DNA from: Cliona cf. orientalis
Lineage: Eukaryota > Porifera > Demospongiae > Clionaida > Clionaidae
DNA length: 64,000 nucleotides
Assembly: GCA_963930775.1 (NCBI GenBank)
Contig: OZ005694.1
Span: forward strand, 8,386,899-8,450,898
Direction: 5' to 3'
Below, piece by piece: positions 31,701-63,041 of this stretch; position 1 is the first letter of the stretch; each line of letters begins with the position of its first letter. Position numbers and translations under genes: made by a program. The notes below the pieces were generated by a model that was not told the origin of the DNA, did no database searches, and worked only from the letters and a program-made list of their open reading frames with translations.

Positions 31701-34700
31701 GTAAATTGCTACTAGGGATGTAATTAATTTGTCTTACTCCTGGCCACAGTGTCTGCAAAGTTTCAATTGTATAGATATTGCTTTCATTGAGGAGTGGTAC
31801 AGCATCGCCACGTAGGATATTTGGTACTTCTGAGGGTGGTACAAGAATCTATAATAAAATATAACAATAATTATTAAGTAATAATGATTGGAACAGTATT
31901 GTATACAATACTCTATCTCATACATCAGATATTCTCTGATCCAAGTCAGTGATATTTCGAACAGCATCGTCATACATACTTCCACCCAAAGAGTTATTGA
32001 GAAGCGACAAACGAGTTTTCTAAAGGGGGGGGGGGGGGGGGAGAAGATTCATGAATTTTGCACAAAGGATTAACACTATTGTGGTGATTTAACACTATAG
32101 CTAGCTGTGGGCTAGGAGTTGGAGAATAAAGTGTTGCAATAATTATTATTATAGTAATCAAATTTCAGGTTTTATTGCAAGGTGCATGCACCAAGGTAAC
32201 AAAATGAATGTTTTCCATGCATGCACAAAGCTGTATAATACAGTCTACATGCATGCATGGATTAATTGACGATATTGATGATACGATTTCACTCACTATA
32301 AAAGTTTCAGCATCTTCTGGAGAGAGAGAATAAAGTGGTGTAAAGCCACGCTGCTCAAACTGCAAATGAATAAGGTCCAATTTCAAGTGGTATTAGCTAC
32401 TAGCTAGCTATATTATTATGTTAACTTAATTGTTAGCTACATACAGCATGGCACGGTAAACTTACATGAATGGTTAATCTTGATCTATTCTGGGTGACAG
32501 CATTGAAGAATCGTGTGACATTGAAAAAAGCGGTGCTTCCGTGCGTTTTCTCATAGAAAAAGTCTCTGCTGTTTATGGACCATGGCAATATCTCTGGAAT
32601 TCCAATTAGTGGCCACCCCCCTGCAATTTAGTGCCATGGTATTTTGTAATGTAGTTATACTCCAGGACTCCTGAAGCATATAGTTACCTAGAAAATTATT
32701 AATCACATCGAGAAGAGGTTGGACTCCCAGACTCTCGATGGTTTTATCATCCAGACAAGACTGATAGAGATCAAAAGCGTTCTGTGTTTGAAGATCTGTG
32801 ACTGTCCTACTATCACCAAGGTCAGCCAGATATCGAAATATACGAAGTTGTAGTGCTAGCAGTGGGTTGATTGCACTTAGGCCTGCATAATACAATATAG
32901 AGACAAATTAATGCATCAGTTTGACGTATTTAAATAGCTGATGATATACCAATTGAAGTGGGATATTATAGCTATTTGCCATAAGAATTAATGCATGCAG
33001 TAGTGCAGTTTACCCTGACTGTACAGATGCATGCAAACTTCTAGCTCCTTTAATTGAAAAATTAAATGGCTCCCATATATATATATATATATATATATGT
33101 ATAATTGATATTGTTGCATCATCAATTAAATTTTAATGGATAAATCAATGTATGATTATATATGCTGTTAGAAGTGTTAAAATTTAGCTACCTGGAGGAA
33201 TCGGGTTTTTCTGGCCCCAGTTTCCACAACTGAATTCATAGAAGTCCTCACAGGGGTCAACAGACTGATTCATCGCAGCTGTCATTTGTGCCGCCAGCTG
33301 AACACATCCTGGGGTGGTGCATGTGCTGGGACCGGAATCTGTCGGAGATACTGTGGTAGAGCCACCTGTTGGAGACATGGTAGGACCACCCGTTTGACTT
33401 GAAGACTGGGATTGGGACTGAGACGACCGTACTCCGAGTGCAATGGCCAAAGCGATTACTGCAATGATGGCTGAAACTGCATGAAAGATCAACCCGGGTA
33501 TGGAATTCTTGGTATTTGTAGCTGGAACTCTCTAGAGCATAATAATTATTATGCCATTTGTGAAATTCGTTTTCAGTACGTGTTTCACCAGAGCTGAAAC
33601 TGGTGTAGATGCAGCATGTGGGATATGCGCTCTGGATTGATAGCCTAGATCTAGAATGCTGGAGCACATGTTACTGTGTAGGTTTCTGTATTGACGACCT
33701 TTACCTACCCATAGTCGGGGGGGGGGCTACCAACAAAAATTGTGGTGGGCTATGCAAGAGTGCTTTTGAATCTCCCAGGTGCCTAGATCTTGCGATGTGA
33801 TGATAATAATTATTATAATGATTATCTATAATACCTTATATTATTTTGTGCATGGAATCACCCAGGATGCAGGATACAATCACTATGAAAATCAATAATC
33901 TGGTAGTTAGAAGCTATACGTAGCCCGCAGGCTATGGACTCTCATGGCCGCTGAGGTGTATATTGGTTCATCAACTCTGAGCTTATAGCCTAATGGAGCA
34001 TACAAACGCTGACATTAGCTGTGTTTTCTACACAGCATCGCTATAGCCAATTGCAAAAGTTTTCACAGGAGTAGATTAAATTCCAACTGCATGCAAATGC
34101 GTTCGGGGAGGATGACATAGACAATACACAGTAAATGATCTGAGGTCATGTAGTTGAGTAGAGCAGATGTGTCCCACCCAGACCACCATAGTACCAGCTG
34201 CACTATACAGTTGTATAGCTGCAGTCTGCGTTTGCATAACACCCAAGATGTTGATAGCCTTGCATGATTAGCTACAATTTGTCTACATCATCCTACGCTG
34301 TTACTATGTTTGTACTGTAGCTCAACACTCCTATCTAATCCACTCCTGGTTTTTCACCCCATGGATCTTTCTCAGTTGCATTACGCCACCAAGGGCTTAT
34401 CTATAGGCAGCTCGATAAGCCCTTTGCCACACAGAATGAAACGTATGACCACAAAATAGTAGGATCAGTATTGGGCTGGTGATAATTTTAACCAAAGAAT
34501 TTTTAATAATAATATTATTATTATTACAAGTGCCTATATATAATATATAGAGTAAACTATTCCAGCTGTCTAGAGGGGTGCACTATGTGGTATATATAGC
34601 TTATATTTTCAAGGTCGATATACATATACCAGGGAGCTCAAGCCTATAATAACAATATTATACCCAATCCATATGTATGTACACCCACCCTGTACAATAC

Positions 34701-40000: not shown

Positions 40001-43000
40001 GCCCAGTTGCTTTCTGGAGAGAGCCTTGGGCTGAGCGTGGGCACTAGGACTGGCGTCTCTAGGACAGCTGCAGATGCAGACACACAACAAAACAAGAATT
40101 GAAAATGGACAAAAATGGAAAACTTGACATATCTACATGTACATGTACATCCTACTTATACGTATACTTGCATATGTAACCATCTGAAAATTTAATACAG
40201 AGCAAAAGGCAAAGCCACTTGCCCAGCACTTAGCCTTGAGAACTATATGTAAGTACATATAAGTACATGTACATGTACATGTAGCATTAAAAAGCTGGAG
40301 ACGAGGTTACCCTTTGTACTCCTAAAACCAATCTCGAGTGGGACGGTCACGGTAGGTCATGTGACTCACCGTTCTCTCATGAGTCTGTTGATGTCGTCAG
40401 GATTCAGCTTGGTTGCCTTGGAAACCCAAGGGTGGCGCACTATGTCCTGCATGGTGATCCGCAGTGAAGGCTCCAGCAGGAAAATCCGGTTAAACAGGTT
40501 AGTCAAGCTCGAAGATATGCTCTCGCCGAGTTTTGACCACTCCCGCCAGAAGAGCTCGTTAGGCAGGGGCACCCCCAATGCGCTGAGTTCACCTGCTGTT
40601 CTCATGTAGGAGTCCAGTTTGGAACAGTGAATGGGGAATGGGAATAGAATCCCAAGGGGTGCCAGAACGGAACGCGCGTAGTGGTCCAATTCCTTTACCT
40701 TTTCCACCATTGCCTCAACACCAACCTACATGTACATGTACATGTACATAATAATTACAATACACATGCGATATCGATAATACGTAGCATAATAGTTTAG
40801 GAAGATTGCTAAACGGATCAAGTAACAAGATCTACATGTACTTTCTGGCATTTCCGTGATTTAATGAATCATGACAAGGCCATGATAGTATATAATATAA
40901 TAATATTATTTATGGTAAAGAAATGTAATACATGTAATATGAAAATCTTACTTCAGAAATAGAGACTATTGCAGGTATTATGATAAATTATATGTGTACA
41001 CCAGCACATGCATAACATGTAAAAAGCTTACCAAGAAAAATAGGGTGACTCCTAGTGACCATATATCAGCAGCTGAGGGGTCATAACTATGGATACCGGC
41101 GTTGACCTCTGGCGCTCTGTAGTTATCGGTTCCTATTCCTTTCGTCTTTGTTCTCAGCACCTTAGTGGGGTCGTCCGATACGGGAAGAAACTGGAACCAA
41201 ATTCACACACAAGAACACACTCGTAAACACAAGAATTGGTACATGTACATAATATTATGTAGTTGCATCCATAGTATTTCACTCACATTACAAATGTTTC
41301 ACCCGGCCAGTAATACTAATGATGTGCAGGTGTGCAGTAAGGTACATGTACATGTAGATGTAAAGTACACGATTGGACAGCGTATACAGGAAGGCATACA
41401 ATATTATTATAGCGAACGGCTTTTGGCTGCTAACAGCTGCACTATATCAGGCTTGTCCTTCATTGCTCTCTCTCTCTCCCTCCCCCTCCCTCTCCCTCCT
41501 TCCCCCTCTGTGTCCATTCTCCCCGGACCCATGCATTCACTTTCACAACTTTCTCACTATCTCAAAAATTGCTCCCTCTCTCCCTCTCTCTCTCTCTCTC
41601 TGTGTGTCCATTTCCCCCGGGCCCATGCATTCACTTTCACAACTTTCTCACTAACTCAAAAATTGCTCCCTCTCTCTCTCTCTCTGTGTCCATTTCCCCC
41701 GGGCCCATGCATTCACTTTCACAACTTTCTCACTAACTCAAAAATTGCTCCCTCTCTCCCTCTCTCTCTCTCTCTCTGTGTCCATTTCCCCCGGACCCAT
41801 GCATTCACTTTCACAACTTTCTCACTATCTCAAAAATTGCTCCCTCTCTCCCTCTCTCTCTCTCTCTCTGTGTCCATTTCCCCCGGGCCCATGCATTCAC
41901 TTTCACAACTTTCTCACTAACTCAAAAAACTGTCACAAAAGAACAGCAAACAAAACGAACTATTGCTGGCATACTTTATTTGTTCCAAAATCGGTCAGCT
42001 TCAGGTTGAAGTGTTCGTCGAGGACACAGTTCTCAGGTTTGATGTCTCTGTGGTAGACCCCTCTCTCGTGAAGGTAGATGACGGCCAGTGAGGCCTGAGT
42101 GAAGTAGTGCGCAGCAAGGGGCTCCGAAAAATTGCTCACTCTGCATTTTTGTATAATAATGCATACGATGCCGTGTACAATAATCGGTGCGAAATAATAC
42201 ATGTATATGCACATGTGTACATGTACAATGGAGAATGAAAGATTATTACGTAGTATTTGCATATTATTATTATATAGACAGTCCCAGAAGCCATCCAATT
42301 CTTGGTTTGTTGTGTGTATAGTTTCTCTACACGTATGTGCATTTTAGAGGGAACCTCAGGGGCGGGGGAAGCATTGCATTATAGCCTTATACATGTAAAT
42401 GTACCTTTTGTGACGTTCAAATGGTCCAGTGACAAGAAAACTGAACAGGTCAGTTCCACTACAGTACTCAAACACCACGTACTGTGCCCTCATAACAATG
42501 CAGCCTGGAGTAATACAACAAAGAATACAATAATTGTAGTGTACTGTACATCTAGTTAATTACATCATTATGACATCAGTGATAAATGTGGGAGGTAATA
42601 CCGCACACGCATTGCAATGGAAGAGGGATATTCAAGCATGGGCCCTCTTATGGGACCTCCTATAAAGAACGGACAAGGCCATGTACGAGAGGGGTCAGGG
42701 GTTGGGTTTCGGGTAAGATTGTTTGTCAGGGTTAGTCTCCAGGGTCTTGTCTGTTCTTAAAAGGAGATCCCTTTTATGAAACTACAATAATTACCGTCTC
42801 TTCTTGATACTGGTGCATGTTTCAGTGAGACGTCCAGCACAGTGCACAGGTTCTCGTGGGAGAAGTGGCCATCTCTGAGCTGCTTCAGCACACTCAGCTC
42901 TTTCTCCTCCGCCGGGCTCTCTTGGAAGAAGGTCTGAGACATTATTAATAACCATGGTGATACATGTACATTGAGATGGGTTAACTTTACAGCAAAAAGT

Positions 43001-43958: not shown

Positions 43959-45733
43959 TTACAGCTGTCCAGAGTCAGCAATGACGATCTTCTTGGAGGT
44001 CTTTCCACTGTCAGAGCCGTAGCCCTCGATCCTTTTCACCACGTCCATTCCATCAATAACGCTCCCAAAGACCACATGCTTACCATCGAGCCTGCACACA
44101 CACGACGGAACAATTAAATAATTATAATTTTACTAGCCAAGTGGGAGTGTCCTAATTAACGATACAGCCTCATTTCAGGGGTGTCCTTGCGTTAATTATT
44201 ATAGAGGGGTTCTAGTATACACGTACGTCAAGGCTCCATTTCCCTCCCAAAACCTGCTCTATCCATAGCCATACCTTACCTTAGGATAGCCCATTTATTT
44301 AGCATAATATAATGTGGATCATGCATCTTCTTAGCAAGTGCACGGTATATACTTAAGCTGGGCTAGCATAGCATAGCATAGGGGGTCTATTGCCAAAGCT
44401 GGAGTGCATGGTCAGACAAGACTAAGACCAGACGAACGAGTCAACTACATGTACATACCACTGGGTCTTGACGGTGCAGAGGAAGAACTGGGATCCGTTG
44501 GTGTTGGGTCCAGCGTTGGCCATAGACAGAATTCCCTCTCCAGTGTGCTTCAGCTGGAAGTTCTCATCGGCAAACCTAGGGGAGGGGAATGATGCAAGTA
44601 CTTTATTTTTTTTAAAAAACCTGGTTACAACATGCAAGTTGCTTAGAGGGTGTTCCCACCCCTGAGGTTGATTCCCCCCCCCCTCCCTGAAAATTAAAAA
44701 CTGTACATAGAGAATAGTTGTTAAAAGAGTACTATTGGAAGGATTGTAGGCAACACTTGGCATCACAGTCACACACCAGTGAGCACAGGGTATGCGCAAC
44801 ACGCACGCATGCACACACACACCTATACGTGCCATACACATACTCATATACCCTATAAGTGCCCTGAAAACCCCTCACTAACATGTATGGTAAGAAAATG
44901 CACTGAGCCTATATACATATTGTTACTGGGACGCATCAGATTAGGACATATCCAACAGCAATTAAGTCAAGTGTAAACAGTCTCACACCAATTAATGGAA
45001 AGCATAAATTCTATACTTCGTGCAAATCGCCTAGCTGGCATACAAATATATCACCCCTTCAAATTTTCTAAGATACTAATAAACGAGCATCACAGGTTTT
45101 TTGTTGTTGTTGTTGTTAGCAGTCTTACTTCTCTCCGTAGATGGACTTTCCGCCGGTTCCGTTGCCACGGGTGAAGTCCCCTCCCTGGCACATGAAGTTG
45201 GGGATCACACGATGGAATGCGCTGCCCTTGTAGCCAAAGCCCTTCTCGCCGGTGCAAAGGGCACGGAAGTTCTCTGAGATGGTGGCAAAACAAAAGGAAG
45301 ATCGGGTCAAGTTTAGTGGCAATACAAAATTCTATGCTCAAAAAAAGTGCCACCCTAATTAAAGCACCACCTGAGTAGTTTTAGCTCGTTATAAAAAAAA
45401 TGTAATTAGCACCAGATGAAATTGAAGAACATGTCTAAAGGGTAATTTTTTTGCCAAAAATTACATGTTCATGTGTTAACAGTGTAGGACCCTATTTCTT
45501 ACCAGCAGTCTTTGGTACGACATCTGCGCGGAGCTGTAAAAAAAAAAAGGGCAACAAATTATGCAACAAAATGATCCGCAGAGAAACCATACCAATGAAA
45601 TTCAAAAAGAGCAGTTTTGCCCACCAGGGCTGGTTGGCTGAACGTAAATTATAAGACGACTCACCTCCATAGTTATCCTACCGAGGGATTTGCCGTCGGC
45701 GGTTATATCAAAGAACACTTTTGGCTTCGACAT
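43959..45733 (-). CDS. PPIA: Cyclophilin A-type peptidyl-prolyl cis-trans isomerase
   Basis: Five coding exons, 45665-45733, 45503-45533, 45129-45273, 44459-44575 and 43959-44091, have compatible phases and sum to 495 bases, so 164 residues plus stop TAA. The enzyme catalyses cis-trans isomerisation of Xaa-Pro bonds and is the usual cyclosporin target. Family landmarks are all present: [10 protein letters not shown] start, [25 protein letters not shown] (the catalytic Arg and the active-site Phe/Met/Gln), NGSQFF, and [15 protein letters not shown] with the cyclosporin-contact Trp; it ends IADSGQL. Length equals the single-domain cytosolic form. The reading frame stays open 49 codons upstream to another ATG (45878-45880) with a basic segment lacking acidic residues, so a longer organellar form is conceivable. 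Head-to-head with the DBB-PDZ gene. Confidence 0.96.
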
Positions 45734-46694
45734 GACTGTTGCTAAACTCCTGAAGAGAACGCCGAAATACGAGAAGAACCTTTGCTTTGGGTGCAACAAC
45801 ACGGAGGATCTGCCGTACATCCAAAATGGTGGGGTGATCGCGGCACTACTGCGCATGCGTACAAAACACGTGGCACCCATGCCATGCGCGTGCGCGCGAT
45901 ATGCCGATATGCGCTAATGCGCGCGCTATATGCATGCCGTAAATGTGCTACCTATCCAATTTTTCGAAACCCCTATTTCAACTTTTCCGGATTACTCATT
46001 TCCGGGTAGACGGTGCATGCTCAGCTAGCTCAGCGCATGTCAGCGAGCGAGCGGGAGAAGCTGGAATCGAAGGATCTTTGGACCACAAAAGAAGGCGATT
46101 GAAGAGTTCTAAGCTTTGAAGATTGACAGAGAGAGGTAGGGTTGTAAGATAATAGGGTTCTTTATCGTCGATCGCTTCTTTTTCGCGATCGCGGTGAGTC
46201 AAAACCGTACCAAACCTGCTCAGAGTGCAGTTGGAATTTGTTTATGTGCAGTTTGGGGTTTTGGAAAGGGGTAATCTAATAGGTGAACTGGTTGAACGTC
46301 ACCGTTGTTACAAAGATATTAAAAAGATTCAGCGCTGTAGCTACCATCTTCCACGTGATGTTCGGTGGAAGTAGACAAACCTGTTGAAAATCTTCAAGCT
46401 CCCGTTTGCTGACTAGCTACGTATTCGTCAGCAGCCTTGCGGTCAAATTGGTACTATATTATTTGATAATTATAGGCCCCCCTCCAATAGCTTAAAGTAT
46501 AAATTTGAGAAAGCTATAAGTGTATTTGCTAACTCTGCTGACCTCCCCTGTAGGTGCTAGGTCCAGTTTGCTGTGCTGACTCTATAAAAAACTCAATAGT
46601 GAGTTCATATTCAGCCAGCTCCCTGAAAAGGAGAGAGACTGAAGTATTAGTCCCGAAGAAGGAAGAGAGAGTATCATCGAGAAGGGAACACGTG
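45734..46694. promoter_or_regulatory. Divergent promoter of cyclophilin and DBB-PDZ genes, with a 5' UTR intron
   Basis: GC- and CpG-rich core at about 45840-46070 with an NRF-1-like palindrome (GCGCATGCG, 45850-45858) and a TTCCGG ETS-like word near 45999. Going right, a probable noncoding first exon ends at a donor GCG|GTGAGTC (about 46192) and joins an acceptor TGTAG (46549-46553), 142 bases before the chosen ATG. There is no TATA box, which fits broad CpG-type housekeeping promoters. The left side also carries the in-frame extension of cyclophilin (45734-45880). Confidence 0.55.
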
Positions 46695-47871
46695 ATGTCG
46701 ATGATGTACATGAATCCACCGACGGGCCCCTCGCTAGTCGGCCCCGGTCACGCCGCTCAGCAACAGCAGCCGCAGCAGGTACACCAGGCCACGCCCTCCG
46801 CCTCCTACCAGGAATGGCTGAAGGCATGGAAGTCGTGGGCAGGCACCAGAAAGAGGGGAAAAATGGCACAGTTCATCGTACAGAAACTGGAAGAAAACGT
46901 GAGTAAAGAAAGAATACCTACGATGTATACGCATAGCTTAGAGTAGGTTTTTTTTGTGTGGGAGGGGGGAGAGGGGATTTGTATGTGTTTGTGTGTGTAA
47001 ATAGTTGTATTGTGTACGACATTGTATGCAATTTTTTTCTGTTGTAAGTGATGTCATGAGGGGTTAATTTTGAGCATTCTTCGAAACTTCCAAAAACGTT
47101 CCCAACTCCTGAGCTATTATTATTGGCTTGAACCATGGCATGATTTATTCTAACACCGTCCTGCTAGTATAGCACTCACAATAAATTCATCCACTTCCAG
47201 TATGGGCGGAGAGTGGGGGGGGGGGGGGGGGGGGGAGGGGACGCATCGATCATGTTAGAAAATTGCCAGTTTTTACCTCAATTTGATGGCTCGCTGTTCA
47301 GGATGGATGTTTTACTGAACATTATCAGTCAAGCAGAGAGTAATGTACATCTATGTATAATACTCCACTAAGGTTGTTTACTCATGCCTTAAAAATGATT
47401 AAAAAATTGTGTCTTCCTGGAAATTGGCCCCATTATCAGATCCTGTGGCAATTTTTAGGAATACATGTAGCTACTATTTTTAAAATGGAGGGATAGAGTG
47501 AGGGAGGAAGGGGGAAGATAAATACATGTACATGTAATAGTGTGTGCTAGCCCATGGATAGCGGAATTGGTAATTACCAGGGTTGATAAAACAATAATTA
47601 TTAGCAACAGTGAGTATCTACCAACGAACCAAAATAGTATGGGTGATGAGTATTGTAGTATATGTGTAAGTACAGTATCGAGATATTTTTTTTCTCTCGT
47701 GATTCAATGATTTTTATTTGTGCAGAAACAAGCAAAGTGGATCGATGTCACCATCGGGAAGTTTGAACTCACCGAGTGGCACAGGATTGCTGAGGAATGG
47801 TTTAAGGAAAAACCCAGGAACTCAGACCAGGTGAGCTTAATGATGAATTTAGAAATATACTTGTGCCACAA

Positions 47872-47920
<49 letters not shown>

Positions 47921-50482
47921 GGGAGGGGAGGGCGAGGGAGAGAGAGAAAGAAAGAGAGAATATGAAGTACATGAACATCACTCTCATTGATACACCCTTA
48001 CTCATGATAATATTATGGATAAACCCACACACACACACACACGCTCACAGAGTAACGCTTCACTGCCCTTTAATGTAGTGTGTGACTGTCCAATTTGTCT
48101 TTGTTCTGCATGCCCACCTTCCTTCCTCTGTCTTCTTGTCTGATGCGTTGTTTTTGTCGATGGTCTGAGCATTTTTCAACACTTCACACATACAATTCAT
48201 TCATACGTGCATGTGTGTATAGAGATGGAGGGAAAGAAAGGGAGGAGGGGAGAGGAAAGAGAGAGATGGGTGAAAAGGGAAAGAGGGAGAGAGAGAGAGA
48301 GGGGTGTGGAGAGAGGGAGAGAGAGAAACAGAGAGAGGAGGGGGTAGATGAAATAGCATTTTTTTTATCTTGGTCAGCTGCATCCTGGCCATCAAGGAAG
48401 TGTTCCCCCTCAGGATTCTCTTTGTAGGCACACTAATATAATATAATTTTGCACACACTAGGGGCACAACATCTGGACTCCATGCATTGCAATTAGTATC
48501 AGATTAAACACTCTACATGTATTTCAAGAATAGATCTTTACTGCAGTTTTATGTTTGTCATTGTTAGAATGGCATACTCCATTGATTTTGTTTATTATTC
48601 AGGTTGATGCCCCCTGTATGTTGCGAAAAGGCCTGCCCCGGGCTTTTCCCGGGCTCGATGAGGTCAAAGGTGAAAGCATCAAGGAGGGGACTCAGTACAG
48701 GAGCCGAGTGTTTCAGGCTCCGGCCTCCCTTGTGCAAGGTCAGCACATCATCATTATGTAACCTGATCTAGTTACCCATAGTTGTGTCACTGGATGACTC
48801 AACATTGTATGGAAGTGCTTCTTCATCTTAATGCTTGTATTTACAATGTACTTGTATGTGTGCGTGCATGCATGCATATTACACATAACTACCGTAAATC
48901 TTAAGACTAAAAGGCTTTTAGTTCAGTATCATGTACACAAATACAGCATACGTGCATGCACATAATTGTCTATGCCTGAACCAGTACCAAGTGCTTGGGA
49001 TGATTTCTCCCATACATACATACATACAGTGTACATACATGTACATGTACATGCATGTATACATGTATACATACACTGTACATTGTACACATGACAAATT
49101 ATAGAAAATGAGTTCTATTAATTGTAATTATATTGAGGTAAAAGTATACATACATATACTTCTACGTGTACACATGTACAAGAATAATTAAATTTGCTGA
49201 TAATTATAGTTTACATGTTACAGTACATTACGCACATGTATACATGTATACATATCTATACAGAGGTGCAGCTATACGTGAGCAAGCCATCCATCATGTA
49301 CCCCACTTCAGCCGTGGGTCCCGATATGTCGTCCTACAGTGGGGTAAGCTATCATTAGAAGTATCAGTCCATACGTACGTTCGTGTTTGCCTTTCATCTC
49401 TCTCTATGTCTCTCTCTTTTCTTGATCATTTCTTTTCTCCCAATTGAGTCAAGTTGTTTTGTACAAAACTAACCGGTGTGTGTTTATGCAGCATATGGCC
49501 GCCATGCAAATGTCTTCTGCTGCATACGCACAGACAAGCAACGGACCTACAGGTATGTGTACATGTACATGTGCATGTGCATACATGTGTACAGGCGAGT
49601 GTATGGGGGTATGTGTGTGTGTGTGTGAGTGAGTGAGTGAGTAGAGTGAGTGTGTGGGTGTAGTGGTGTGCATTATCTGGAATCGGAACTGGAACTTTAT
49701 AGTTCTCGTGTGAGTGTCATATGTTACTAAACATTGGCCATAAATGATTTTACAACTTGGCACTTTTCAGGCTACAACTATGTGATGGCAGGGGGATCCA
49801 TGCATTCCCCCTCAAGCATCAGAATGAAGCCAGAGCCTGTAGTGGACCCCCTCGACCACATAGGGGGAAGTCCCTCTTCGTCAGACACAGCCTCCCCTTA
49901 CAACTATTCCAACTACGATGGGCTTCACAATGGGGGTGGAGCTACTATGGTGGCCCCGCCCATGATCACTGACAGTCCCGGTGAGTGTACTACAATGTAT
50001 CTTACGTAATGGAAGCGTATATTATCTTCGGAGATGCCTTAATTTTGTTTTGCATTCAGAGAGGGGTCTAAAAAGCTTTTGTTTCAGAGAAACGAGTATT
50101 GCATTAATTATTGCCGAATGCTATGATAGTGCATTCTGAAAGTGGATATTTAAGCCAAGGATAATTGAAGTATCATTTGTTTCTCCTATTGTGCCCCCTC
50201 CTCTCCCATACTCTTCCAGTTGCCGCTAGCGATGTCATCTCCGTTGGCAACGGCTACCACTCCCCCTACAATAGGGGTCCGAGTCCGTATTCCATGGAGA
50301 GTACGAGCCCCGCCCACACACAGACGACGGCCTATGCCCAGCAACAGGCGGCACAGCAGATGCTGCAGGTGAGCAGAGAGAGAGAGAGAGATATTTTATT
50401 TTGTTAGCTTGAGGGTCAGATTTTTGGTGATATTTTGGTATAACCATTAAATTTTGCTTTCTCATTGACAAAGGAGGGAGGT

Positions 50483-50579
<97 letters not shown>

Positions 50580-53176
50580 GAGGAGGGAGGGAAGAGAAGA
50601 GTGGTGGGGGGAGGCCATTAAAGTATATATACTTGCACAGTTGTAAAGGTTCCCTCACAATAGACCCACTATCAACTGCCCACTTACAGTCCTGGACCTT
50701 CACATGCTAATTTTATTTATCATCAAAAGCCCTAAGAAGAACTCGTGTCTACTCTAGCTTTGCTCAACAATGCCTGGAATGTGTCTACCCGTTGTAGTGT
50801 GTGGGTGGGAATGGCTCAAAAAATTACCTACATGTAAATTACAATGGTATGGGTACTGTATTATTATAATAATGACATTGCCTGCTGGGCATGAGCCTGA
50901 TTAAGTTGGGGTCTTTGATGCACAGGTGTGCCCTGGTCACATGGCTCCTGCATGACAACCGATCAGTTCCGGAAATCTAATTCAATTTTTAGGCGCTGCC
51001 AAACCCAATTGACCCGAGTGTACATGTACACGTGCGTGGCCAAAAAGCATAATTTTCTGAAGGCCTTTTGTAGCGAAAGATTGGCCTGACTCTCCTATTA
51101 TAGTATCAAGATTAAAAGGAGGTGTTTCAATGTCATGTATATTATAGTTCTGGAACCTACATAATAATATAAAATTTGATGCTATTTGCTGCCAAATTAG
51201 CATTAATTTTATTTCTTGCATTTGGACATTGTGAATTGTACTTTTAAAGCTACTTTATAGTTGGCAAGTGCTAATGTACTCTTGGTATTGGCTGTGGTGG
51301 TATAAAGCAGTGCTAGCTACAGTAGCTAAGATTCATGAGCAGTGGCTCTCATGTACAAAGTCTCAAAATTTGTTTATGGAAAAAAATTATAAGTGGGGAT
51401 TGAACCAATAGCTAGTGCTAGAATTCGCATACTTAACTTTTCAGATGTATACTCATAGACACTCCACTGTATAAATATTCTAGTAACAATGATATCGTTC
51501 TATATTTAGGTGCCTACGTCTGCCGGAGTTGGTGAGGTGGACGGCTGGTCCAACGGGAGCAGCCATAACTCGCCGCGGTACTCCCCCGATCCAACCTACC
51601 CTCAGGATATGGTGAGCTAACAACTGAACAGATTACATGTACATGTACCTGTAGCTATACGAAAATCCAGGGTTTATTTCAGGAGGCATAGCAGCAAACT
51701 TCAAGGGGGCACTCCCATATTGATATAGGGAACGCCAATTTTCAAGGGGGGGGGGTGAAGGCACCCCCTGGCCCCCTGAAATAAACCCTGTAAACCAAAA
51801 GGAGGAGGGGGTAACCTTCCCATTGGCTGCCTACTCAGGCAAACCTAACCTGGTCTAGAGGATAAAGAATAATTACAATTTCATGGAGATGGAAGGGAAT
51901 TATGTTGCCAAAGTGGAGAGGGGGGCACCTTTAGCTGATTATCAAGGGCTTATAAGGCCTTGCTATTGGAAGAGTATATATTGCTATTGGTAGGGTAAGC
52001 ATTGAAAAGTTCTTGCATAAATACAGGGGAAATGCTTGGAAGTAATGATGGGAATGATTTTCTTTACCAAAAGCGGTTTTTTGTGCAGTTTCACTAACAT
52101 GCATCAATTGTAGTGATAGTACATCACTCTTCATGCATGTACATGTATACTCAGCTACTGAGAGTAAGTTATTACTACACTACACTGTATATACTAGTAG
52201 AAGCTCATAGTAGAGTAGACCCCTTGCAGACTTTTTGTTCCCATCATGGGCTCAAGATTATTATTCTTACACAAAGTTCCCCTGCACAAATCCCTCAAAA
52301 TGATTTTCACTACCAAGTGTGTCATCATTATACTCTTAAGCTTGGTACTGTACAGTTTGCTATAATATCATCATCTTGGTGCCGGCCATGACATGATGTG
52401 CATATATTATAGTTCATGTATGGTACAGATTAGTCCATACCAGGAAAATGTTCCAATAGCTGGCTGTGAAAGATCTTAAATTTACATAAACTGTTCACTT
52501 AGTTTGTCAGTTACGAAATATAATAGATACATAGTTGGCAAAGTGGGATGGGGGGGGGGGGGGTGGGGATACATTACGAGTATTAAGACAGGTGGTCCTC
52601 AAGCCACAGCTCAGCGCATGCTTAGTTACGAACTGAACTTTCCATTGCGCTACTTTAGAAGGACATCTTCCATCCATGTGTGTGTATGTATGACTGTAGA
52701 AGAGCATTAAATTTAGTCATAACAAGTAACACAAAACCTTTGTAGTTGCCAAAGAAGTGGTACGCAGGTGTGCACGTACAAGTGTGTGTGTGTGTGTGTG
52801 TATCGGAAACAAAGCGATAGTGTACATGTACATGTACGTGGTGCAGTGTATATTATACATACAGGATGTACACAATAATATTATTGCAATAGTAACTATG
52901 GTGGGTATATTATTGTACGTATGGTATTATAACTGTATGTACATGTATTTGGTGTACTTGGCATGTATCCTGATATCACCGAGGAAGGGTCTGATTGTAA
53001 CGAGCGTCCTGTCTGCTCGGCCAATTTGATCCTGTTTTGACATGGTTTCTGTGCTGGTTGCCATGTTTGAGTTTATTTGATACTGGAGCTCTCTCTGTAT
53101 ATGGCATTCCTGAACTAGTTTTAGTCATGCCTCTTGAGGAAGGTCACCTCTCTCTCCCTCTCTCTCTCTCTCTTTC

Positions 53177-53216
<40 letters not shown>

Positions 53217-56200
53217 TCTCTCTTTCCCTCGTCTCTCTCTCTCCCTCTCATGCTAATGCGATAACTTTACCTAGTAAATATTTATGATGCAAGGGGTACT
53301 CAAACACAAACCCTATCACTCCCATTGAGTACTATAAAGGGGGAAGCCCTGCTCGTTATTGAGGAAACAGTTGTACCGCTTCTGTTCATAACTCATGAAA
53401 CCGTCCCTGGTCTTCATCTTGGCTTCATGGCGTTCAATAGAGATAGGTGCTTGTTTATGCAACTGAGCTATAGCTTGCAATTCTTGTTAGATGACAAGTG
53501 GACAGATCACTTAGAAATAGTGTGTAAATTGCAACAATTATGTGATGTGTAGTGTGCATGTAAGTGTAGGATCATGTTGCCTACTGCTACTTACTGTATA
53601 GCCAGAAATATTGGTGGGAATTAAATTTGGCGGTTGAGCCCGAAATCGCCATTGCAAGAATATTAGCGGATTTAAAGTAAATTTGGCAGTTTGGTATGGG
53701 ATCGCCATACGTATTAAATTTGGTGGAGACCACCAAACCACCAAATTTTCCGGCTATACGGTAATATCAATATTATGCGGCAGTCGTACATGTGCGTAGA
53801 TAGAGAGATCTACACTATTTCTGTCACTTTTTGATGACTTTGCAATGCCGTAACTTAGTTAATAAGGGGCAGTCCAGAAGCCTCAAAATTATGCTGAAAG
53901 AGTGGCCCTAAAATATTTGAGGCAGGAAATTCTAATTATGCTAATTAAATTTTAAGATAATGAATGACATATAGTACATGGATAATGAATGACATATAGT
54001 ACATGTACATGTGCACACGCTTGCTCGCTCACTTGCTTGACCCCGCCCATCTACTCACAGAGTCAGCAGCCCCTGAGCCCTCCAATGATGGTGCCTTCTC
54101 AGCTCAGCCCCGGACCCAACCAGCAAGTACAAGGTACAGTTACCACACTGTGTGCTATTCATGTATGCATGTACATTGATTCGTGTAAAATTTGACATTA
54201 GTCATGTCAAGGGCATATCGAGCCGCCGCTCGATACGCCCTTGGTCATGTATGCTGTGCTGGTGTACATTTTGTGGTTTAGGTTTACATTGTACATGTAC
54301 TACATGTACATGCCTTGTGTACATGTATGCAAATACAAATTTAAAAATGCAAGTTAGGTCAGCTGAGTCTAAGTGTCTAATTTTTGTATACAAAAAGCTA
54401 AGAAGCTCCTAGGCAATCAGCATGTACATGCACATCTACATGTATAATTATTATTCCAGCATGAAGGGTGAAGATATCCTTTATGATGACCCAACCCCTT
54501 CCCATAGCTGGCAAATTGCCTGTAAAATATAAAAACTTTGGTTGCTGGGTAACTACCAACAAATTATCATGCGAGAGAACTTTCCATAATATAGGAACAT
54601 TATGCTGGTATCTAGGGGGCATTGCTAGGATAAGGGTCATAAAGTATCATTCCATTCTTGCTGGTATCTAGGGACAGAGATGTCACAGGGATAGGGGTAA
54701 TAAAAGAATCATTTGTATCTAGGGATATGTTGCAATGGATAAGGGTCACCCCAGTAGAAGTATGCGCGTTCGAAGACAAACCAGTGCAATCTGTACATGT
54801 AAATTGGGCTCCATTCACAGTATCTATGGAGACCTGTAATAGATCAAAGAGAGGGGTGAAGGGTTAGTGGTCATTTTGCATGCCGTAGTGGTGTCCTAGC
54901 AACTGTGCGGCCTGTTGGTTGTCATGCGCGCGCACTTGCGCCCATGCGGCGCCATCATAATATCAATATCATCAGATAATAATGACGAAGCCAGCAATAT
55001 GCACACGCTTGTATGTAGTGTGAGTTCCAATAATAATACAGCCTTGTTATGGGTATAGGTACTGTACTCTATGCATGTGTACTATGTATGGTTACACTTA
55101 AGTGTATTCATAACGCACACTTGTGCGGTGTTGTTGCTGTGAATACACACACACGCGGGCACACACACAACTATGGGTTAGTTGCAGTTCCAATACGTGG
55201 AATAACTGATGTTTATAAGGCAGCTGCCAGATCAGACTGGGCTCATTTTGCACACAGTCAGGTAGTTGCTGCGTAGCTAGCTGCTGAAGATAGCCAGCCA
55301 GTTTTTAGCTTAGCCTAAAGCTGTACAGCTACAGTCAAATTTATATACATATGTGTCACTATGGTTATTACAGTACTCGTGGATGTGAAGGCCTACCCAG
55401 ACCAGAGCCCTCTTGAGGTAAGATATGATAAATAATGCTTATAACAGGAGCACATAATAATAATAATTATGCTCTTGATGATTTTAATACACTTGATTAC
55501 CTTTGGTTGTTATGTGGAATGGATGAGTGGGCTGCAATAACATTGACATTGGAATGGAGTATGTATTAAAAGCCAGTGTATGTGTGTGTGTGGAGAGAGA
55601 GAGAGAGAGTGAGAGGGGGGAGGGGTTGGGGAGCAAATTGAATTAGCAATAATATTGTATACTACGATTATAGTGTACTCTCCTAGGGCATCTATTGAAT
55701 GGTTGGCTTGGCACATGATAGCCTCAGGCATTGGCAGCGTCATACTTGTTAATAATCTAGATAGTAGTTATTGAGTAGTGGCTTTGCAATTACTCGAGTG
55801 TTGGTACTTTCCACGGTTGGCTACTGAACGTGAACCAAACGCCTTAATGCTGGCCATGCATGAGAGCTGTTACTACTAGCTAGCTAGCTAGCTAGCTACA
55901 GTATCGTTGGGGTTAACAGAAAAATAAACTTGTACTGTTCCCGACAGTATTTCATGCTGAGATTATAGTGCATGATGGGATTATAAGAGAGTGGCGGTGA
56001 CTGTGTTTTGGGGCATGACCGCTTTTCCCTCTGCGCTTGCTTGCTTGCATCCTGTCTTTCCGTCCTGTTTTTCCTGCCCGATAGAGCTGTCCTTGGCATG
56101 AAGTGGCTACCTTTGTAGTCGTCGTTTGGCTAACTGGGTTTCTTGAAACTACAAAATTTAGTAATAATATCCTTTGATCAGTAACTTAAATCTTTACTGG

Positions 56201-56584
56201 CACATGATAATTCATCCTCTCTCTCTTTCTCTCTCCCCTCTTTCTCTCTCCCTCCCTCCCTCTCTCTCCCTCTCTTTCTCTCTCCCTCCCTCTCCTCTCT
56301 CTCTCCTTCCTCCCCTCTCCTCTCAGGGTGGAGGTCAGCTAGCCTTGCTGTTCAGTGGTCAGCTTCCTCCCGGTCCAAAGTGGCTTAGCTTCATCTCTCA
56401 GACTCGGCCCGAATATGTCCACCAGGTGGAGGCCATCGAGAATAATGCCGTAGCCCTCACCACCATCATACCTAGTAAGTCCTCAATGCACAATCTCCTG
56501 AAATATTATTATAAATTTTCTGAGATACTGCTGTCCATATCCCCATACACATATATATCTAGAAGTACTCTATTGCCTCGTACC

Positions 56585-56657
<73 letters not shown>

Positions 56658-59600
56658 TCTAAGCAAAGTATAAATTATTTTGCAGTGATAGTTGGGAAAG
56701 GCCTTGGAGACGAGGCTACATGTACATGTGTATGTGTACTAATACTTCACTAGTTCTTCCATATGAGTCGATCAGGATACTGACTCACATGGTCACATGA
56801 CTTGCGTAGTACAGACATGCCATGGTCACATGGCAGTACACTTCATTCATGAACTGGATCCTTTCCTGTACACGAAGGAATGTGATCACATGCTACTATT
56901 ACGTACGTACCTTTAGTTAATGCAGGGTTTTTTCGTGAAAAAAATTTCATGGCTTGAGAGATCGAATCCACAACTATAGCATGCTAGTTAGGCCTAGCTA
57001 CCAGTAAGCCCTTATTGCTGGAACACTCGTGTAAATTTATTATACAGAGTGATGACCTCAAATAGTTGTTATGATTGTGCATGTCATTATGATAATGACT
57101 CATTAATAGTTATGAGAGTGTGCTCTCTAGCTCTCTGTGCCAGCTACACAATCATGTATCTGTATAATATACACTATAGTGTAGCTAGCTACATGTGTAT
57201 ATTATTGGATTGTACCTTTTATGTGTAGTAACAGAGGTGGTTTCAGTTCCCATTCTTAGTTCATCAGGAGTCAGCTCTCACCACCAGCCCCACACAGACA
57301 GTATGCCTCAACAACAGCACAATGTCATAATCTTACATCTAGCTGTTACTTAATGGTTATAATAATATATCCTAGGCCGCTCTGTACCTGCTAGAGACTA
57401 TATATATAGTATTGATGTTTCTCTATATTGGAGAATATTCTGTCACTAGTTACCTAGGTAACATCTAACAAATATGCATGCGGAGTCATATGCTGTAGAT
57501 GTATGTCACAGAGGTAGAATAGAAGTGAGGGCGAAGGTTGATTGCCATTCTATGCCACTGTCTATAATTATTATAAAACGTTATTATGCAGTTGGCTATC
57601 TGCTGCATGATCTAACTTACATGTACACCATCCTAGTGTTTATATCATGCGTTATGTTGTTATGTGTAATGTTGTTATGTGTAGGGGTGCCCACTGTATG
57701 GTCTCTTAGTGCTTGTATCATTCAGTTGTACTTGCAGTTCCTGCCCTTTGAAAAGATGACCATCCTTGAACCTTGAACCTTAAACCTTAAAATTACAGTC
57801 TGCAATTGGAGAGATAGAAATTAAACTAAGCAACTATTATTGCAGTCTAGGTTGATTTCATGAGCTGATCAGCATGTACGTGTCCGTAGCTAGGCAGCTC
57901 TGTATAGTGTACCTTGACCCTTGTGTTTTGTTTGTGTTCGAGTGTATAATTACACTGAAAGTGCCCAAGTTATCATAACCAATAGCATCCCTATTATACA
58001 TGTAGAAACTGACAGTGTGTTCTTTTACGTGTACTAACATGTATTCATTGCATTGAGCATTTGGATAGTATCCCATAATATTATTATGAACTGAACTGTC
58101 GTTTAGCGTACTACCTACATGTACAGTACAACGTACGGTGTGTATTATGTTCAGTTCTAAAATGTACAGAGCATCCTGTCCTGGTACCGTACAAACAGCC
58201 ATTCGCAATCGTGTTAATTAGATGCTTGAATTTTGGGACCAAATTAAAATAAATGTACGATAACGTAGCACTAGTACATGTACCTGCAAAATAATTAATA
58301 CGCACATACATACACACTACTGTTTATGTGTATCCAATTTTTTATGCTATGCCGCCATCATTTTTTTTTTTTCACAGAACATGACATCCCGGAGACCATG
58401 AATCTCCAGGTGGTGTGTGGGGGTCAGGTGATCGCTTCAACGGAGTTCACCTACTTTGCCAACACCCAGTACCACAGTGACCTTCTCTTCCAGTACCTCA
58501 CCCAAACCTTCCCTACCTACTTTCCAGACGTGGGCGCGGGGGGAATGGGCGGAGCCATGGGTCCAGACGGGAGCGACGGCGGCTACGGGGGCGCGGGCGG
58601 AGGGGGGTACTATGGCGGAAACATCCCCTCCACCTCCTACAGTCTCCTCCTCGGGGCATGCCGACTCGGAATTGAGCCGCTCATCTTTGCCACCCTGGAG
58701 CTGCCCAGCATGGCCCCCATCAGCCGCGCTCAGCTGACCAAAGCTAAGGAGCTAGCCGAAGAGCACGGACACTTGAATGCCGCCAAGGTCCTGGGGATCA
58801 TCTGTGAACTGCCAACTGTCACGGTGAAAGGTGGACCGGCGGGACAGGAGGCCACGACGGAGCAGATCTTGGCCAACGAGAAGAGCAAGGAGGCTCTCCA
58901 GGGACTGGATAATGTCAAGGATAACCTCAAAGGTAAGGGTCGGTTATTGTGCGATTACATCATCGTAAATACGTAGCCTGTTTCAGATATGTATCAGGGT
59001 CACAAAAACGATAGCCCCCAGATGTTGTAGAGATACCATATAGCCGGAAAAAGTGGCAGTTTGTCTTGCGACTGCCAAAAATAATAATATCATCTATCTT
59101 TGATATTTTCTTACTTTGCAGCTGCCGGGCAGAAGATCCTCGACCACCTCGCCAAGATCCAGAAGATGGAGCAGAGGGTGAAGGACCAGGAGGAGAGGGA
59201 CAGTGCCACCTCTAGCCCCGCCCACCAGCCGTCCATCGAGAGGAGCGACTCCTCCTCTAGCGAGACGCGACGTCGTCACAGCGCCAACAGGCTCCAGCGC
59301 CAGGACGTCTCCGTCAGAGAAGGTATGGGAAAATTATCAATATAATTATTAATTTTAGTCAGGATTACATCCAAATCTGTATTGATGGTGTGCTAAAAAG
59401 TGCACAATAATCTTCAGTGGTCTTGGTCTCGCAATGACCTGCTGCCACTTTAAAAGTTTACCAGTAAAGATACTGGTAATGTGGTTCCTGAACTGTGAAA
59501 TGGAATTAAGCTACATGTAGTTAGGTAAGGGAATCGATCCAAGACACCTCAATACCACATGTATGATGACAGTGCGAAGGAAATGATAGTTAGTTTTTGT

Positions 59601-61303
59601 TTACGTGATAGTTGGTATACAATAGTGGGATAGGGTGAGATTGTTTTTTTTGTTGTTGTTGTTGGGGGGGGGGGAGGATGGAGAAGTGCTTGGGAACTAC
59701 GAAGGGATGTTGATCACAGCTCTGGGAAGCTGTCTGGTGTCAAAAAGCATCAAGTGGGGGGGGGGGGGTACCAATGTCCGGAAGTTAGCTCCAATTAGCA
59801 CATGTAAGTATTCGTCGGAGGGGAAGAAGAGTGTACTTATCAGGAAAGGTCTGTATATCCTGATACCCTTGAGAGAAATATTATTATTACAGTGAAGTAC
59901 CTGTTTACTTCCCGCACTGCAAATTAGTGGTTTGTGTGTATGAGATAATAGTTTACATTGTGTGGATGCATCTTCATGTAGCTATAGGGACGTAGTTACG
60001 AGCGATAATCCCCTCGTCTCTCTCTCTCTCTCTCTCTCCCTCCCTCCCTTTCTCTCTTTTTCTCTCTCACTCACTTTCTGTCTCAGAAGATGAACCTCCA
60101 CAGACTGCCAGCGGTGGGGTAGACGAGCTTACCCCTCCTGTCCAGATCCACAGCCGAGCGTCTATCTCAGAACAGGACGACCAGCTCCCCCCACTCCGCC
60201 CAACCAGGTCCCTCAAGTCCAGGTCCGCAGGCGGAGCCATGGGGCAGAGGAAGATGCTCGTGGCCTCGTACTCGGACGCTGCTGACTCGGCTGTTTCCAT
60301 GGTGAGTTGGCATGTGGTCGTGCAGTATTTCTCAGGAATTGTAATCTGTTGAGTGCGTGACATTTTTGGCGGTCTAAACATAGCCAGTCTATTGGTTTTG
60401 ACTGGTTCTTAGTAGTTTCAAACCTTTTAATTTAGAAATAGGTACATTTTAGGTAGTGGCTATAAGGAATTTGTAGCAATTGGTCCATATTGAAATGACT
60501 CTGTGTGTGTGCTAGCTTGACCTAAGCTGATCATTTTCTGTGGGAGTCACTGATTCAACTTGTTACCTCCTTTGTTAATTTGCTCCTTATTCAGTCGTTT
60601 GACCATGACCTGGAGCAGGAGATGATTCGTCGAGGCAGCGCTAGCCTCGTCTCATCTGGTCTCTACTCCTTCAACAGCTCTGTCTCACAGCAGCTGCTCA
60701 GCATCACCATTCAGGCACAGGAGGGAGAGACATGTAAGACTCCAAGCTGAAGAGAGGAAGATTGGAGAGAGAGAAAGAGGGAGAGAGGGGGAGAGATAGA
60801 GAGGGAGAGAGGGGGGAGGGAGAGGGCAATACAAGTCTACTAAAAGATATTATATTTGCATGTTTGTCCTGGGATGGCATGATTATACATGTAGATGTAA
60901 AAATTTTATTTCTTTGGGTTTGTTATCAATTGTCCAGCTGTACTGCAACTATAGCATCTGTTTTTGGTATTGAGTGGCTCAGTACAGTATTATAACAATA
61001 CCCATAATGGCATGTGGCAGTGTCATATTGATGCTGATAGTATTCATTGTGGTAAGGGGACCTAAGCAGGAAACTGCAACTAAGCTGTTTGTCCAGCAAT
61101 GAATATCAGTGTGTGGGTGTACAGTGGTGATCTTGTTCTCAAATTTGGCTGACACCATGAGCATGAATGTGGAATAGCAACCAATGCCATAATTATACAT
61201 ATATATTCCATATGCATGTGTAGAGGAATGTGATCTAGCTTATTCATAGCTGAGCTACAGTGTCAGTTGAAGTTGCAATGGATGACTATATTTATTTTTC
61301 CAT

Positions 61304-61366
<63 letters not shown>

Positions 61367-63041
61367 TGCAGTTGCCAATGGTCTCCAGTATGAGTGTGTG
61401 TACCAGGTGATGGAGGACTTTCCTCCCAACAGTGACTCCTCCAATGTGGTGCTCAAGAGTGGGGACAGAATCATCCAGGTAAGACTCACTCTTGAAATTA
61501 ATGGCTACTTGATGCAATTATGAAGTGAGAGAGAGAGAGGGTGGGAGAGGGAGAGAGAGAGAATGAGAGAGAGAGGGGGGAGGGAGGGGAGAGAGAAAAG
61601 ATGAAAGTAGAAAATGGGAGAGATAGACTAAAAATTGACTAAAATCACATCAATTTTCACATCATCATCATCTTTAGGTTGGTGACCACCTTGTGCGTGA
61701 TAAAGGACCCGAAGACTTTGCCGAGATTCTCCGCACCGAGGCCTCCCACGGCACCACCGTCAAGATCCTCCCCCAACTCTCCTCCTCCACTGGCGGTAGC
61801 ACCAGCGTCCACAGCATTGCCTCGTCCATTGGGTACAGCTCCCTCGACGTGGCCGAGAGGAAACAGCTGGTGAGGAGACAGAGCGACAGAGAGATGGCAT
61901 CGTCCCTCACAACCAAGGTCACCAATCTCCTCACGATGAAGGCTTCCATGTAAGCAAGGGGTTTAAATTTATTATTCATGTAGGTACATGTAGATCTATA
62001 TGAGAGCAGCTCAACTTCACTTTCTCTCTCTCTCTTTCTTTTCTCCTTTAGCTACCCTCGCAGTGTGACTGTTCCCTTCGTGGCCGGTGAGGGGTGGGGC
62101 TTCGAGGTTACCGGGGGCAACGCTGTCGGCATCTTCATTTCAAAAGTCAGCAGCAGCAGAAAAGAGCTCCTGGTAAGAGAAATACACATGCACCATGTAC
62201 ATACATGTACATGTAATTATACATTACTTTCTTGTAAAAGTTATGATATTGTGTTGATGTTGCTGTTTATTTTTGCAGGTCGGTGACCAAGTTCTGGAGC
62301 TCGGCGGTCAAAGTACAGTTGGCATGAGCCACTACGAGGCCACCAGCATCCTTCGCTCCTCCAAGGACAAGATCCAGCTCAGAGTGGCTGAGAATACTGC
62401 CAGTAAGTCTGGGTGGGCTTTATTTAGAACCAGCCCAGAACATATCTGTACATGTATTAATTATGACAAAAAAAACTCATTTTGCAGAATTCACTGCTAT
62501 CAAAGATCAATTCGAACTCGAATCCTACTATATTCGGAGCCACGTTGACCACACCCCCAGCGACTCCAAGGACATGCCCCTGAAGAAGGGTGGCATAGTT
62601 CGCGTGGTCAACACGGTCCTATTCCCAGGCTACTGGCTGGCATGGAGTGTGGACCCCAACACAGGAATGGATCTTGACCTGCGTAGGATCCCATCCCCTT
62701 CTGCGTAAGTGCCCGAGTTTGGTACAAGTATAATATGCTTACAATTTCGTGATAGTTCAGGCATAGCCTATACTATAATAACATAAGATGGAGGCCTTCA
62801 CATTCATTCATGTCTATGTTGATATAATATAGCAGCATATAGCAGCCAAACTGTACTCATTCACACAATGTCATGGGTTCTGTTTAGGCATATGGGATAA
62901 TTCAGATTATTGCTTCCTAGGTTTGGAAATTAACTTACAATGACTCTTTTTTTTTTCTCCTGTAGGGCCAAGCAGCTCCACGGCAAAGACGTCTACGAGG
63001 CAGTCAGCGCCCCCCAGCCACAGAACATTGCAGTTTCGTAA
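46695..63041 (+). CDS. DBB/TIG-ankyrin-coiled-coil-PDZ-PDZ-SH3 scaffold protein (novel architecture)
   Basis: Twenty-one coding exons: 46695-46898, 47726-47830, 48603-48738, 49264-49343, 49492-49552, 49771-49980, 50220-50368, 51510-51611, 54061-54133, 55374-55417, 56327-56474, 58378-58932, 59122-59322, 60087-60301, 60595-60733, 61372-61478, 61678-61949, 62052-62172, 62279-62402, 62488-62704, 62966-63041. All phases agree; the sum is 3339 bases, 1112 residues. Start chosen as the first in-frame ATG (MSMMYMNPP). Domains: residues about 25-150 a Trp/charged region I do not recognise; 150-370 Gln/Ser/Tyr/Pro-rich, probably disordered; 374-465 an Ig-like TIG/DBB fold ([11 protein letters not shown] to STEFTYF); 525-580 ankyrin-like helices ([15 protein letters not shown]); Gly-rich insert 489-518; 599-650 coiled coil; PDZ1 about 793-877 (no clear GLGF loop); PDZ2 about 935-1015 (GWGFEV); SH3 about 1016-1090 (SYYIRSH, WLAWSVD) of ZO/CARMA type; no guanylate-kinase domain. 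Probably an adaptor at membranes or junctions; function inferred. Confidence 0.88.
47874..47960 (+). repeat. (GA)n tract after exon 2 donor of the scaffold gene
   Basis: Begins 44 bases after the donor at 47831. Purine-only on the transcribed-sense strand. Confidence 0.9.
50484..50577 (+). repeat. (AG)n microsatellite, about 94 bp
   Basis: Nearly pure AG run in intron 7 of the scaffold gene; a shorter AG run begins six bases after the exon 7 donor (50374-50391). Confidence 0.95.
51668..51790. mobile_element. 123-bp MITE with CAGGGTTTATTTCAGG ends
   Basis: Left CAGGGTTTATTTCAGGAGGC, right GGCCCCCTGAAATAAACCCTG: inverted over about 20 bases. In intron 8 of the scaffold gene, about 57 bases after the donor. 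Confidence 0.75.
53148..53252 (+). repeat. (CT)n tract in intron 8 of the scaffold gene
   Basis: Imperfect CT repeat of about 105 bases in the middle of the intron. Confidence 0.9.
53591..53763. mobile_element. MITE with TTACYGTATAGCCRG ends
   Basis: Left TTACTGTATAGCCAGAAATA, right TTTTCCGGCTATACGGTAA, inverted with few mismatches. The interior repeats ATTAAATTTGGYGG. A partial relative (TATAGCCGGAAAAAGTGGC) is at 59040-59060. Confidence 0.65.
54483..54550. repeat. Fragment of the 26349-26829 foldback family
   Basis: GATGACCCAACCCCTTCCC, GGCAAATTGCC and AAAACTTTGGTTGCTRGG match the minus-strand reading of 26515-26575. In intron 9 of the scaffold gene. Confidence 0.65.
56219..56325 (+). repeat. 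(CT)n tract abutting the acceptor of exon 11
   Basis: Runs into the TCTCAG acceptor, so it serves as the polypyrimidine tract of intron 10. A GA tract lies in the same intron at 55593-55625. Confidence 0.9.
56588..56659 (+). repeat. (TC)n microsatellite in intron 11
   Basis: About 72 bases of TC about 115 bases after the exon 11 donor. Confidence 0.95.
60760..60828 (+). repeat. (GA)n tract near the 5' end of intron 15
   Basis: Starts about 27 bases after the exon 15 donor and is complementary to the CT tract at the 3' end of the same intron. Confidence 0.9.
61304..61363 (+). repeat. (TC)n tract abutting the acceptor of exon 16
   Basis: About 60 bases of TC ending eight bases before the CAG acceptor of exon 16. 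Confidence 0.95.
62788..62860. repeat. GATGGAGGCCTTCAT repeat family, copy 3
   Basis: GATGGAGGCCTTCACATTCA and TCATGTCTATGTTGATA, then AGCAGCCAAACTGTACT. In the last intron of the scaffold gene. Confidence 0.65.

Follow-up and report, generated by a model that had tools for sequence, protein, structure and literature searches.

A demosponge gene joining a putative ETS/IRF-like domain and a DBB-type TIG core to a ZO-like PDZ-PDZ-SH3 end

A single gene within a 64,000-nucleotide window of the genome of the sponge Cliona cf. orientalis (GenBank assembly GCA_963930775.1, contig OZ005694.1, positions 8,386,899 to 8,450,898 of the forward strand) encodes, in one reading frame, a 1112-residue protein whose parts recur in the same order in several sponges. 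Sequence comparisons support identification of these parts, from the N-terminus onward, as an ETS/IRF-like winged-helix-type domain, a low-complexity linker rich in Ser, Pro, and Gln in which a SUMO-type site lies, a TIG domain of the DBB type that leads into helices and ankyrin-like repeats, and a PDZ-PDZ-SH3 end similar to that of ZO proteins. At roughly even odds, we propose that this demosponge family combines the build of a dimeric transcription factor with the end of a junction scaffold, and that its members would bind DNA and take part in signaling. An initial annotation of the window had described a scaffold protein; because of the probable ETS/IRF-like domain at the N-terminus, that label alone would miss half of the protein.

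The window lies in a genome of 216.8 Mb assembled in 149 contigs. The coding region was rebuilt independently, which reproduced the 21 exons and the single 1112-residue frame of the initial annotation. A 20-exon model of 1078 residues was rejected, as alignment to relatives revealed that it was one linker exon short, and an in-frame exon of 102 nucleotides at 51510..51611 completes the model. The whole-chain searches described below and this alignment used the 1078-residue version, from which 34 residues of low-complexity linker, outside any domain, are absent. Searches of the 216.8 Mb genome with the DBB-ankyrin piece and with the N-terminal piece returned matches to this gene only (three of three and four of four, respectively). 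The introns contain long (GA)n/(CT)n runs at approximately 47880-47920, 50490-50575, 56590-56655, and 61310-61365.

46695..63041, + strand: entire coding sequence of 1112 amino acids in 21 exons of consistent phase, all 20 introns being GT-AG
46695-46898, 47726-47830, 48603-48738, 49264-49343, 49492-49552, 49771-49980, 50220-50368, + strand: coding exons 1-7
51510-51611, 54061-54133, 55374-55417, 56327-56474, 58378-58932, 59122-59322, 60087-60301, + strand: coding exons 8-14
60595-60733, 61372-61478, 61678-61949, 62052-62172, 62279-62402, 62488-62704, 62966-63041, + strand: coding exons 15-21

Relatives were sought in a protein search space of about 5.8 billion with a method that requires shared five-residue words, so that more distant relatives may escape the counts given here. 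Of 8000 candidates scored with the whole chain, at least four were relatives; a query with the P0002 N-terminal region recovered six among 33 candidates, and a joined-domain profile recovered at least ten among 8000, which together amount to at least 14 distinct family proteins (P0001-P0007 and P0009-P0015; P0008 is an IRF of the studied genome and lies outside the family). Named relatives are P0002 (Halichondria panicea LOC135343497), P0005 (Amphimedon queenslandica LOC105313719), and P0004 (Em0002g1888a, assigned to Ephydatia muelleri by its gene prefix and EukProt source). These three represent three demosponge orders; with the family present in at least that many, the suggestion that the combination is private to this animal falls away. 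The combination may be an ancestral one that was split later, or it may be a fusion made in sponges. Several members are partial, P0003 being without the N-terminal domain and P0006 without PDZ2-SH3, while P0009-P0012 are N-terminal pieces and P0013-P0015 inner pieces; each protein is included in the counts below solely where the region is covered. With blastp, the 1112-residue protein aligned over residues 1-1105 with P0001 (47.3% identity), 30-1112 with P0002 (48.3%), 32-1087 with P0004 (35.9%), and 35-1106 with P0005 (35.2%).

That a neighboring N-terminal/DBB gene and a PDZ-SH3 gene have been wrongly read as one might be argued from the introns, which reach about 2.4 kb in the first half of the gene, and from the low-complexity linkers that hide the joints. 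It is contradicted by the occurrence of both halves together in P0001, P0003, P0007, and the Halichondria, Ephydatia, and Amphimedon proteins. P0001 comprises 1163 residues, both halves included, encoded on a contig of 4024 nucleotides that has hardly any intron space and looks like a transcript; P0003 joins the TIG and PDZ halves in 719 residues on 3243 nucleotides, and P0007 does so in 1050 residues, its longest contig measuring 5591 nucleotides. Because P0001 and P0003 join the halves on nearly intron-free contigs, fusion of two gene models is very unlikely, and the assignment of both halves to one transcript model, upheld also by relatives of full-length scale, stands.

46845..49274, + strand: residues 51-152, exons 1-4, putative N-terminal ETS/IRF-like winged-helix-type domain (Pfam Ets, PDB profile, conservation)
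49275..54132, + strand: residues 153-373, exons 4-9, low-complexity linker (24-33% identity to four relatives; composition)
49824..49835, + strand: residues 214-217, psi-K-x-E (SUMO-type) site MKPE, at the single lysine of this linker

The N-terminal 150 residues, previously left as unrecognized, contain the region in which the protein is best conserved. Residues 51-152 are 88% identical to P0001, 86% to P0002, 70% to P0004, and 76% to P0005, the highest value among ten regions compared in each of these four relatives; the corresponding ranges are 41-73% for the TIG domain, 36-55% for PDZ1, 32-51% for PDZ2, and 45-70% for SH3. Such conservation is as expected for a DNA-contact surface. Pfam Ets was the sole family matched by the N-terminal segments and was matched by all 11 of them (E 0.00014 to 0.056). 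When a profile of seven N-terminal sequences was compared with 177,635 distinct PDB sequences, 21 were returned at E values up to 10, comprising 19 ETS sequences (SpiD, counted as ETS by its alignment, PU.1, ETV1/4/5, and FLI-1) and two IRF2 sequences. The best E value was 0.073, and therefore no single PDB match is significant; the weight lies in the purity of the ETS/IRF list, which is headed by SpiD and PU.1. The likeness to ETS/IRF factors covers the first half of the winged helix (QF in helix 1, Trp in strand 1, and Trp in helix 2), whereas the second half of the sponge domain is not confidently alignable, and the sponge protein adds TIG, PDZ, and SH3 domains. We consider residues 51-152 to be probably an ETS/IRF-like winged helix and place the domain in a joint ETS/IRF-like class, since its matches stay under the Pfam cut-off for ETS membership. 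Membership in the IRF family was rejected: residues 108-142, approximately, resemble the end of the IRF1/2 domain, yet the hhalign score given below lies within the range of its shuffles, and Pfam IRF (PF00605) matched none of the 11 N-terminal segments, the same model firing elsewhere in the genome with four of five places above its cut-off.

The linker that follows is rich in Ser, Pro, Gly, Ala, Gln, and Tyr, with lysine at 0.7% over 11 linkers. A psi-K-x-E site is present in eight of these 11 and contains the only lysine of the linker in six of the eight; the linkers of P0004, P0010 (which has IKLD), and P0012 are without it. None of 2000 sets of shuffled linkers reached eight, the maximum being two of 11. 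As the linkers are related, the count reflects one conserved site and not independent gains. The psi-K-x-E motif is the SUMO consensus and is frequent in transcription factors.

54133..58463, + strand: residues 374-466, exons 9-12, DBB/TIG (Ig-like) domain (Pfam DBB at family level; PDB profile)
58503..58619, + strand: residues 480-518, last part of the helices that follow TIG, and glycine-rich stretch (sequence; aligned relatives)
58620..58805, + strand: residues 519-580, ankyrin-like helical repeats (PDB profile matches)
58932..59204, + strand: residues 623-650, short helix of charged character, perhaps a coiled coil (sequence only)

Pfam DBB (PF14545) matched four of eight family segments, with P0006 above the curated cut-off of 22.2 bits (25.5 bits, E 1.4e-5) and P0005 (9.2e-4), P0007 (0.0018), and P0004 (0.026) below it; the P0002 segment matched TIG_plexin at 0.096. 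The best of six PDB matches to an eight-sequence TIG profile was 6sws, the BCAP DBB domain (E 0.072). These two results favor the DBB/TIG fold that had been claimed for the region and suggest that the family carries the DBB domain of the Dof/BCAP/BANK adaptors. Nothing useful was returned by a PDB search with a joint DBB-ankyrin profile, and a search with an approximate BCAP fragment had no BCAP among the matches listed. A Pfam DBB scan of the sponge's own genome gave no match but overlooked the studied gene too, so that absence is not shown. For the ankyrin part, a ten-sequence profile gave 13 PDB matches, ten of them ankyrin or DARPin chains (best E 0.064; we take 4gmr and 9jxq to be such chains), and Pfam ankyrin models matched none of the eight family segments; the ankyrin repeats of the initial annotation are thus retained as ankyrin-like, and weakly. 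The coiled coil of that annotation is short and likewise weak. The Pfam lists of the family proteins contain no TIR domain, in line with its reported absence.

60272..60603, + strand: residues 752-764, exons 14-15, conserved short motif before PDZ1 (sequence)
60679..61773, + strand: residues 790-875, PDZ1, divergent (Pfam PDZ_6)
61948..62398, + strand: residues 934-1014, PDZ2 (Pfam PDZ 2e-11, 44.5 bits, above cut-off)
62402..62681, + strand: residues 1016-1080, probable SH3 with YIRSH start (joint ZO-1 match)

In the C-terminal half, a short motif before PDZ1 is recognizable, with changes, in all nine family proteins that cover residues 752-764. The PDZ1 segment matched Pfam PDZ_6 below the cut-off (E 0.0036), and PDZ_6 was found in all five whole proteins (best 2e-10); the assignment of PDZ2 by its Pfam match is secure. 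Pfam SH3 models matched three of seven family SH3 segments, none above the cut-off, and the identity of this domain rests on the ZO-1 chain 3tsw, which spans PDZ2 and SH3, including the YIR start, in a single alignment (E 6.7e-8; residues 902-1059 of the 1078-residue model). The two PDZ domains and the ZO-like PDZ-SH3 end described previously are borne out by these matches, and the order PDZ then SH3, as in MAGUK proteins of the ZO/CARMA/DLG5 branch, appears to be present together with the YIRSH start. Unlike those proteins, the sponge protein has two PDZ domains only and stops about 30 residues past SH3 without the guanylate kinase (GUK) domain that a MAGUK also has; it is not classed as a MAGUK. 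The MAGUK classes have an N-terminal half unlike that of the sponge protein. The reported absence of GUK holds for this species, with a qualification from Ephydatia, whose P0004 extends beyond SH3: phmmer aligned two short pieces of this tail, very weakly (3.5 and 1.4 bits), with the ZO-1 GUK region and collinear with it, which might represent a degenerate GUK. Because of this alignment, the missing GUK in Cliona may be a secondary loss. Neither the P0004 nor the P0005 C-terminal tail was matched by Pfam GUK, and that of P0005 yielded only Integrin_A_Ig_1 (0.014).

The sponge protein would share with EBF1, NF-kB, and CAMTA the succession of a DNA-binding-type domain, a TIG domain, and helices or ankyrin repeats; it differs in having a TIG domain nearest to the BCAP DBB, another DNA-binding-type domain, and a scaffold tail. 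With Dof/stumps, BCAP (PIK3AP1), and BANK1 it shares a TIG domain of the DBB type, after which come helices and putative ankyrin-like repeats; to these it adds the ETS/IRF-like N-terminal domain and the PDZ-PDZ-SH3 tail, neither of which occurs, to our knowledge, in those adaptors. Cnidarian Dof, like the sponge protein, is without TIR according to a survey (PMC7260276). A study of BCAP reports that its DBB shares both fold and dimer interface with the TIG domains of transcription factors and that C-terminal helices stabilize the dimer, as in EBF1 (PMC7128310). By this analogy, the TIG domain and helices would dimerize the sponge protein, and the PDZ-PDZ-SH3 tail would tether it to a receptor or a cell contact. 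A signal could then cause its release or movement into the nucleus; there the winged helices, as a pair, would bind DNA and the linker would act on transcription, dampened by SUMO. One chain would thereby do a job split elsewhere between a receptor adaptor and a transcription factor, carrying signals from membrane to gene.

Several observations weigh against this proposal. None of the 11 N-terminal segments reached the curated Pfam Ets cut-off of 26.9 bits (best 22.6), and whole-protein Pfam scans listed Ets in three of five proteins; a scan of P0005 did not list it. The Ets match spans just the first 45 residues or so (profile positions 1-50 of 81) and ends before the recognition helix; the putative recognition-helix part is without convincing alignment and has invariant prolines, and longer hhalign alignments across the GGA-reading recognition-helix arginines of ETS are unreliable. 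Against six ETS domains of the studied genome (six of eight ETS loci, L025 and L027 having been missed by the domain pattern), hhalign gave a score of 20.3 and a probability of 5.2%, while 200 shuffles averaged 12.0 and reached 21.6 at most; against eight IRF domains the score was 14.6 (shuffle mean 12.4, maximum 20.0), and an 11-sequence alignment scored 20.5 against ETS (7.7%) and 12.0 against IRF. An earlier four-sequence N-terminal profile had matched neither ETS nor IRF in the PDB, and the TIG, N-terminal, and ankyrin profiles whose matches are given above, built from single parts with more sequences, were chosen after a first miss, which somewhat weakens their matches. As to the TIG domain, the DBB segment of the studied gene itself had no Pfam match, nor had those of P0001 and P0003, and apart from 6sws the TIG profile matched no DBB protein among its six PDB matches, the second being a dynein heavy chain (0.41) and four looking unrelated. 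BCAP itself is reported not to bind DNA (PMC7128310).

This last point, together with the Ets matches that all stay below the cut-off and the unmatched recognition-helix half, also favors a protein that acts solely as a cytoplasmic adaptor-scaffold, a Dof/BCAP-like adaptor with a ZO-like tail in which the N-terminal fold is a protein-protein module that replaces TIR and does not bind DNA. DBB and PDZ-SH3 are signaling and scaffold modules in known proteins, and we regard such a protein as possible, if short of probable: the N-terminal domain is conserved beyond the TIG, PDZ, and SH3 domains, its family-level matches are exclusively DNA-binding domains, and the linker, which carries a conserved SUMO-type site, resembles a transcription-factor linker. 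An NF-kB-like protein with its Rel DNA-binding half replaced and a scaffold tail added would account for the order of parts, which equals that of p100/p105 (DNA-binding-type domain, TIG, glycine-rich stretch, and ankyrin repeats), and a single-sequence phmmer search matched NF-kB p52 (residues 408-492 of the 1078-residue model, E 3.7e-5). That match enters the glycine-rich stretch and may be due to composition, however, and the joint DBB-ankyrin and TIG family profiles had no NF-kB chain among the matches listed, the TIG profile preferring BCAP, which makes such an origin improbable.

Elsewhere in the window, three similar frames at 4034-4441, 20340-20678, and 33187-33531 (- strand), with AQ.SSAMNQSVDPC..FY.FSCGNWGQ..PIPPG-like ends, presumably form a tandem cluster of M13 (neprilysin/ECE-like) metallopeptidases. 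Frames at 40369-42343 (- strand) carry HRDIKPENCVLDEHFNLKLTDFG and a PWVSKAT piece and, by these motifs, are presumably a serine/threonine protein kinase gene. Those at 44425-45913 (- strand), by motif presumably a cyclophilin gene, lie about 1 kb from the studied gene in head-to-head orientation.

In the open-access literature searched, no description of the family, its architecture, or the named genes was found. One survey looked in Amphimedon, Mnemiopsis, and Trichoplax without detecting Dof, BANK, or BCAP and correlates Dof with the appearance of FGFR (PMC7260276), and a MAGUK survey reports Amphimedon as without a ZO homologue (PMC2859873). A domain of the DBB type and a PDZ-SH3 end resembling that of ZO-1 now occur in one sponge family that has an Amphimedon member, P0005, whose DBB match (9.2e-4) is below the cut-off and whose PDZ-SH3 end is putatively ZO-like. 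We tentatively suggest that the family could constitute a new protein class, a scaffold-tethered transcription factor with a winged helix, a DBB/TIG core, and a ZO-like PDZ-PDZ-SH3(-GUK) end, present in the heteroscleromorph sponge ancestor. If so, a DBB protein would exist beyond cnidarians and bilaterians, where surveys found DBB, and the DBB domain that Dof, BCAP, and BANK carry would be a transcription-factor TIG domain whose DNA-binding partner was lost later. Should the N-terminal domain bind DNA, the resemblance of the BCAP DBB to transcription-factor TIG domains, as set out in PMC7128310, would gain a testable evolutionary explanation.

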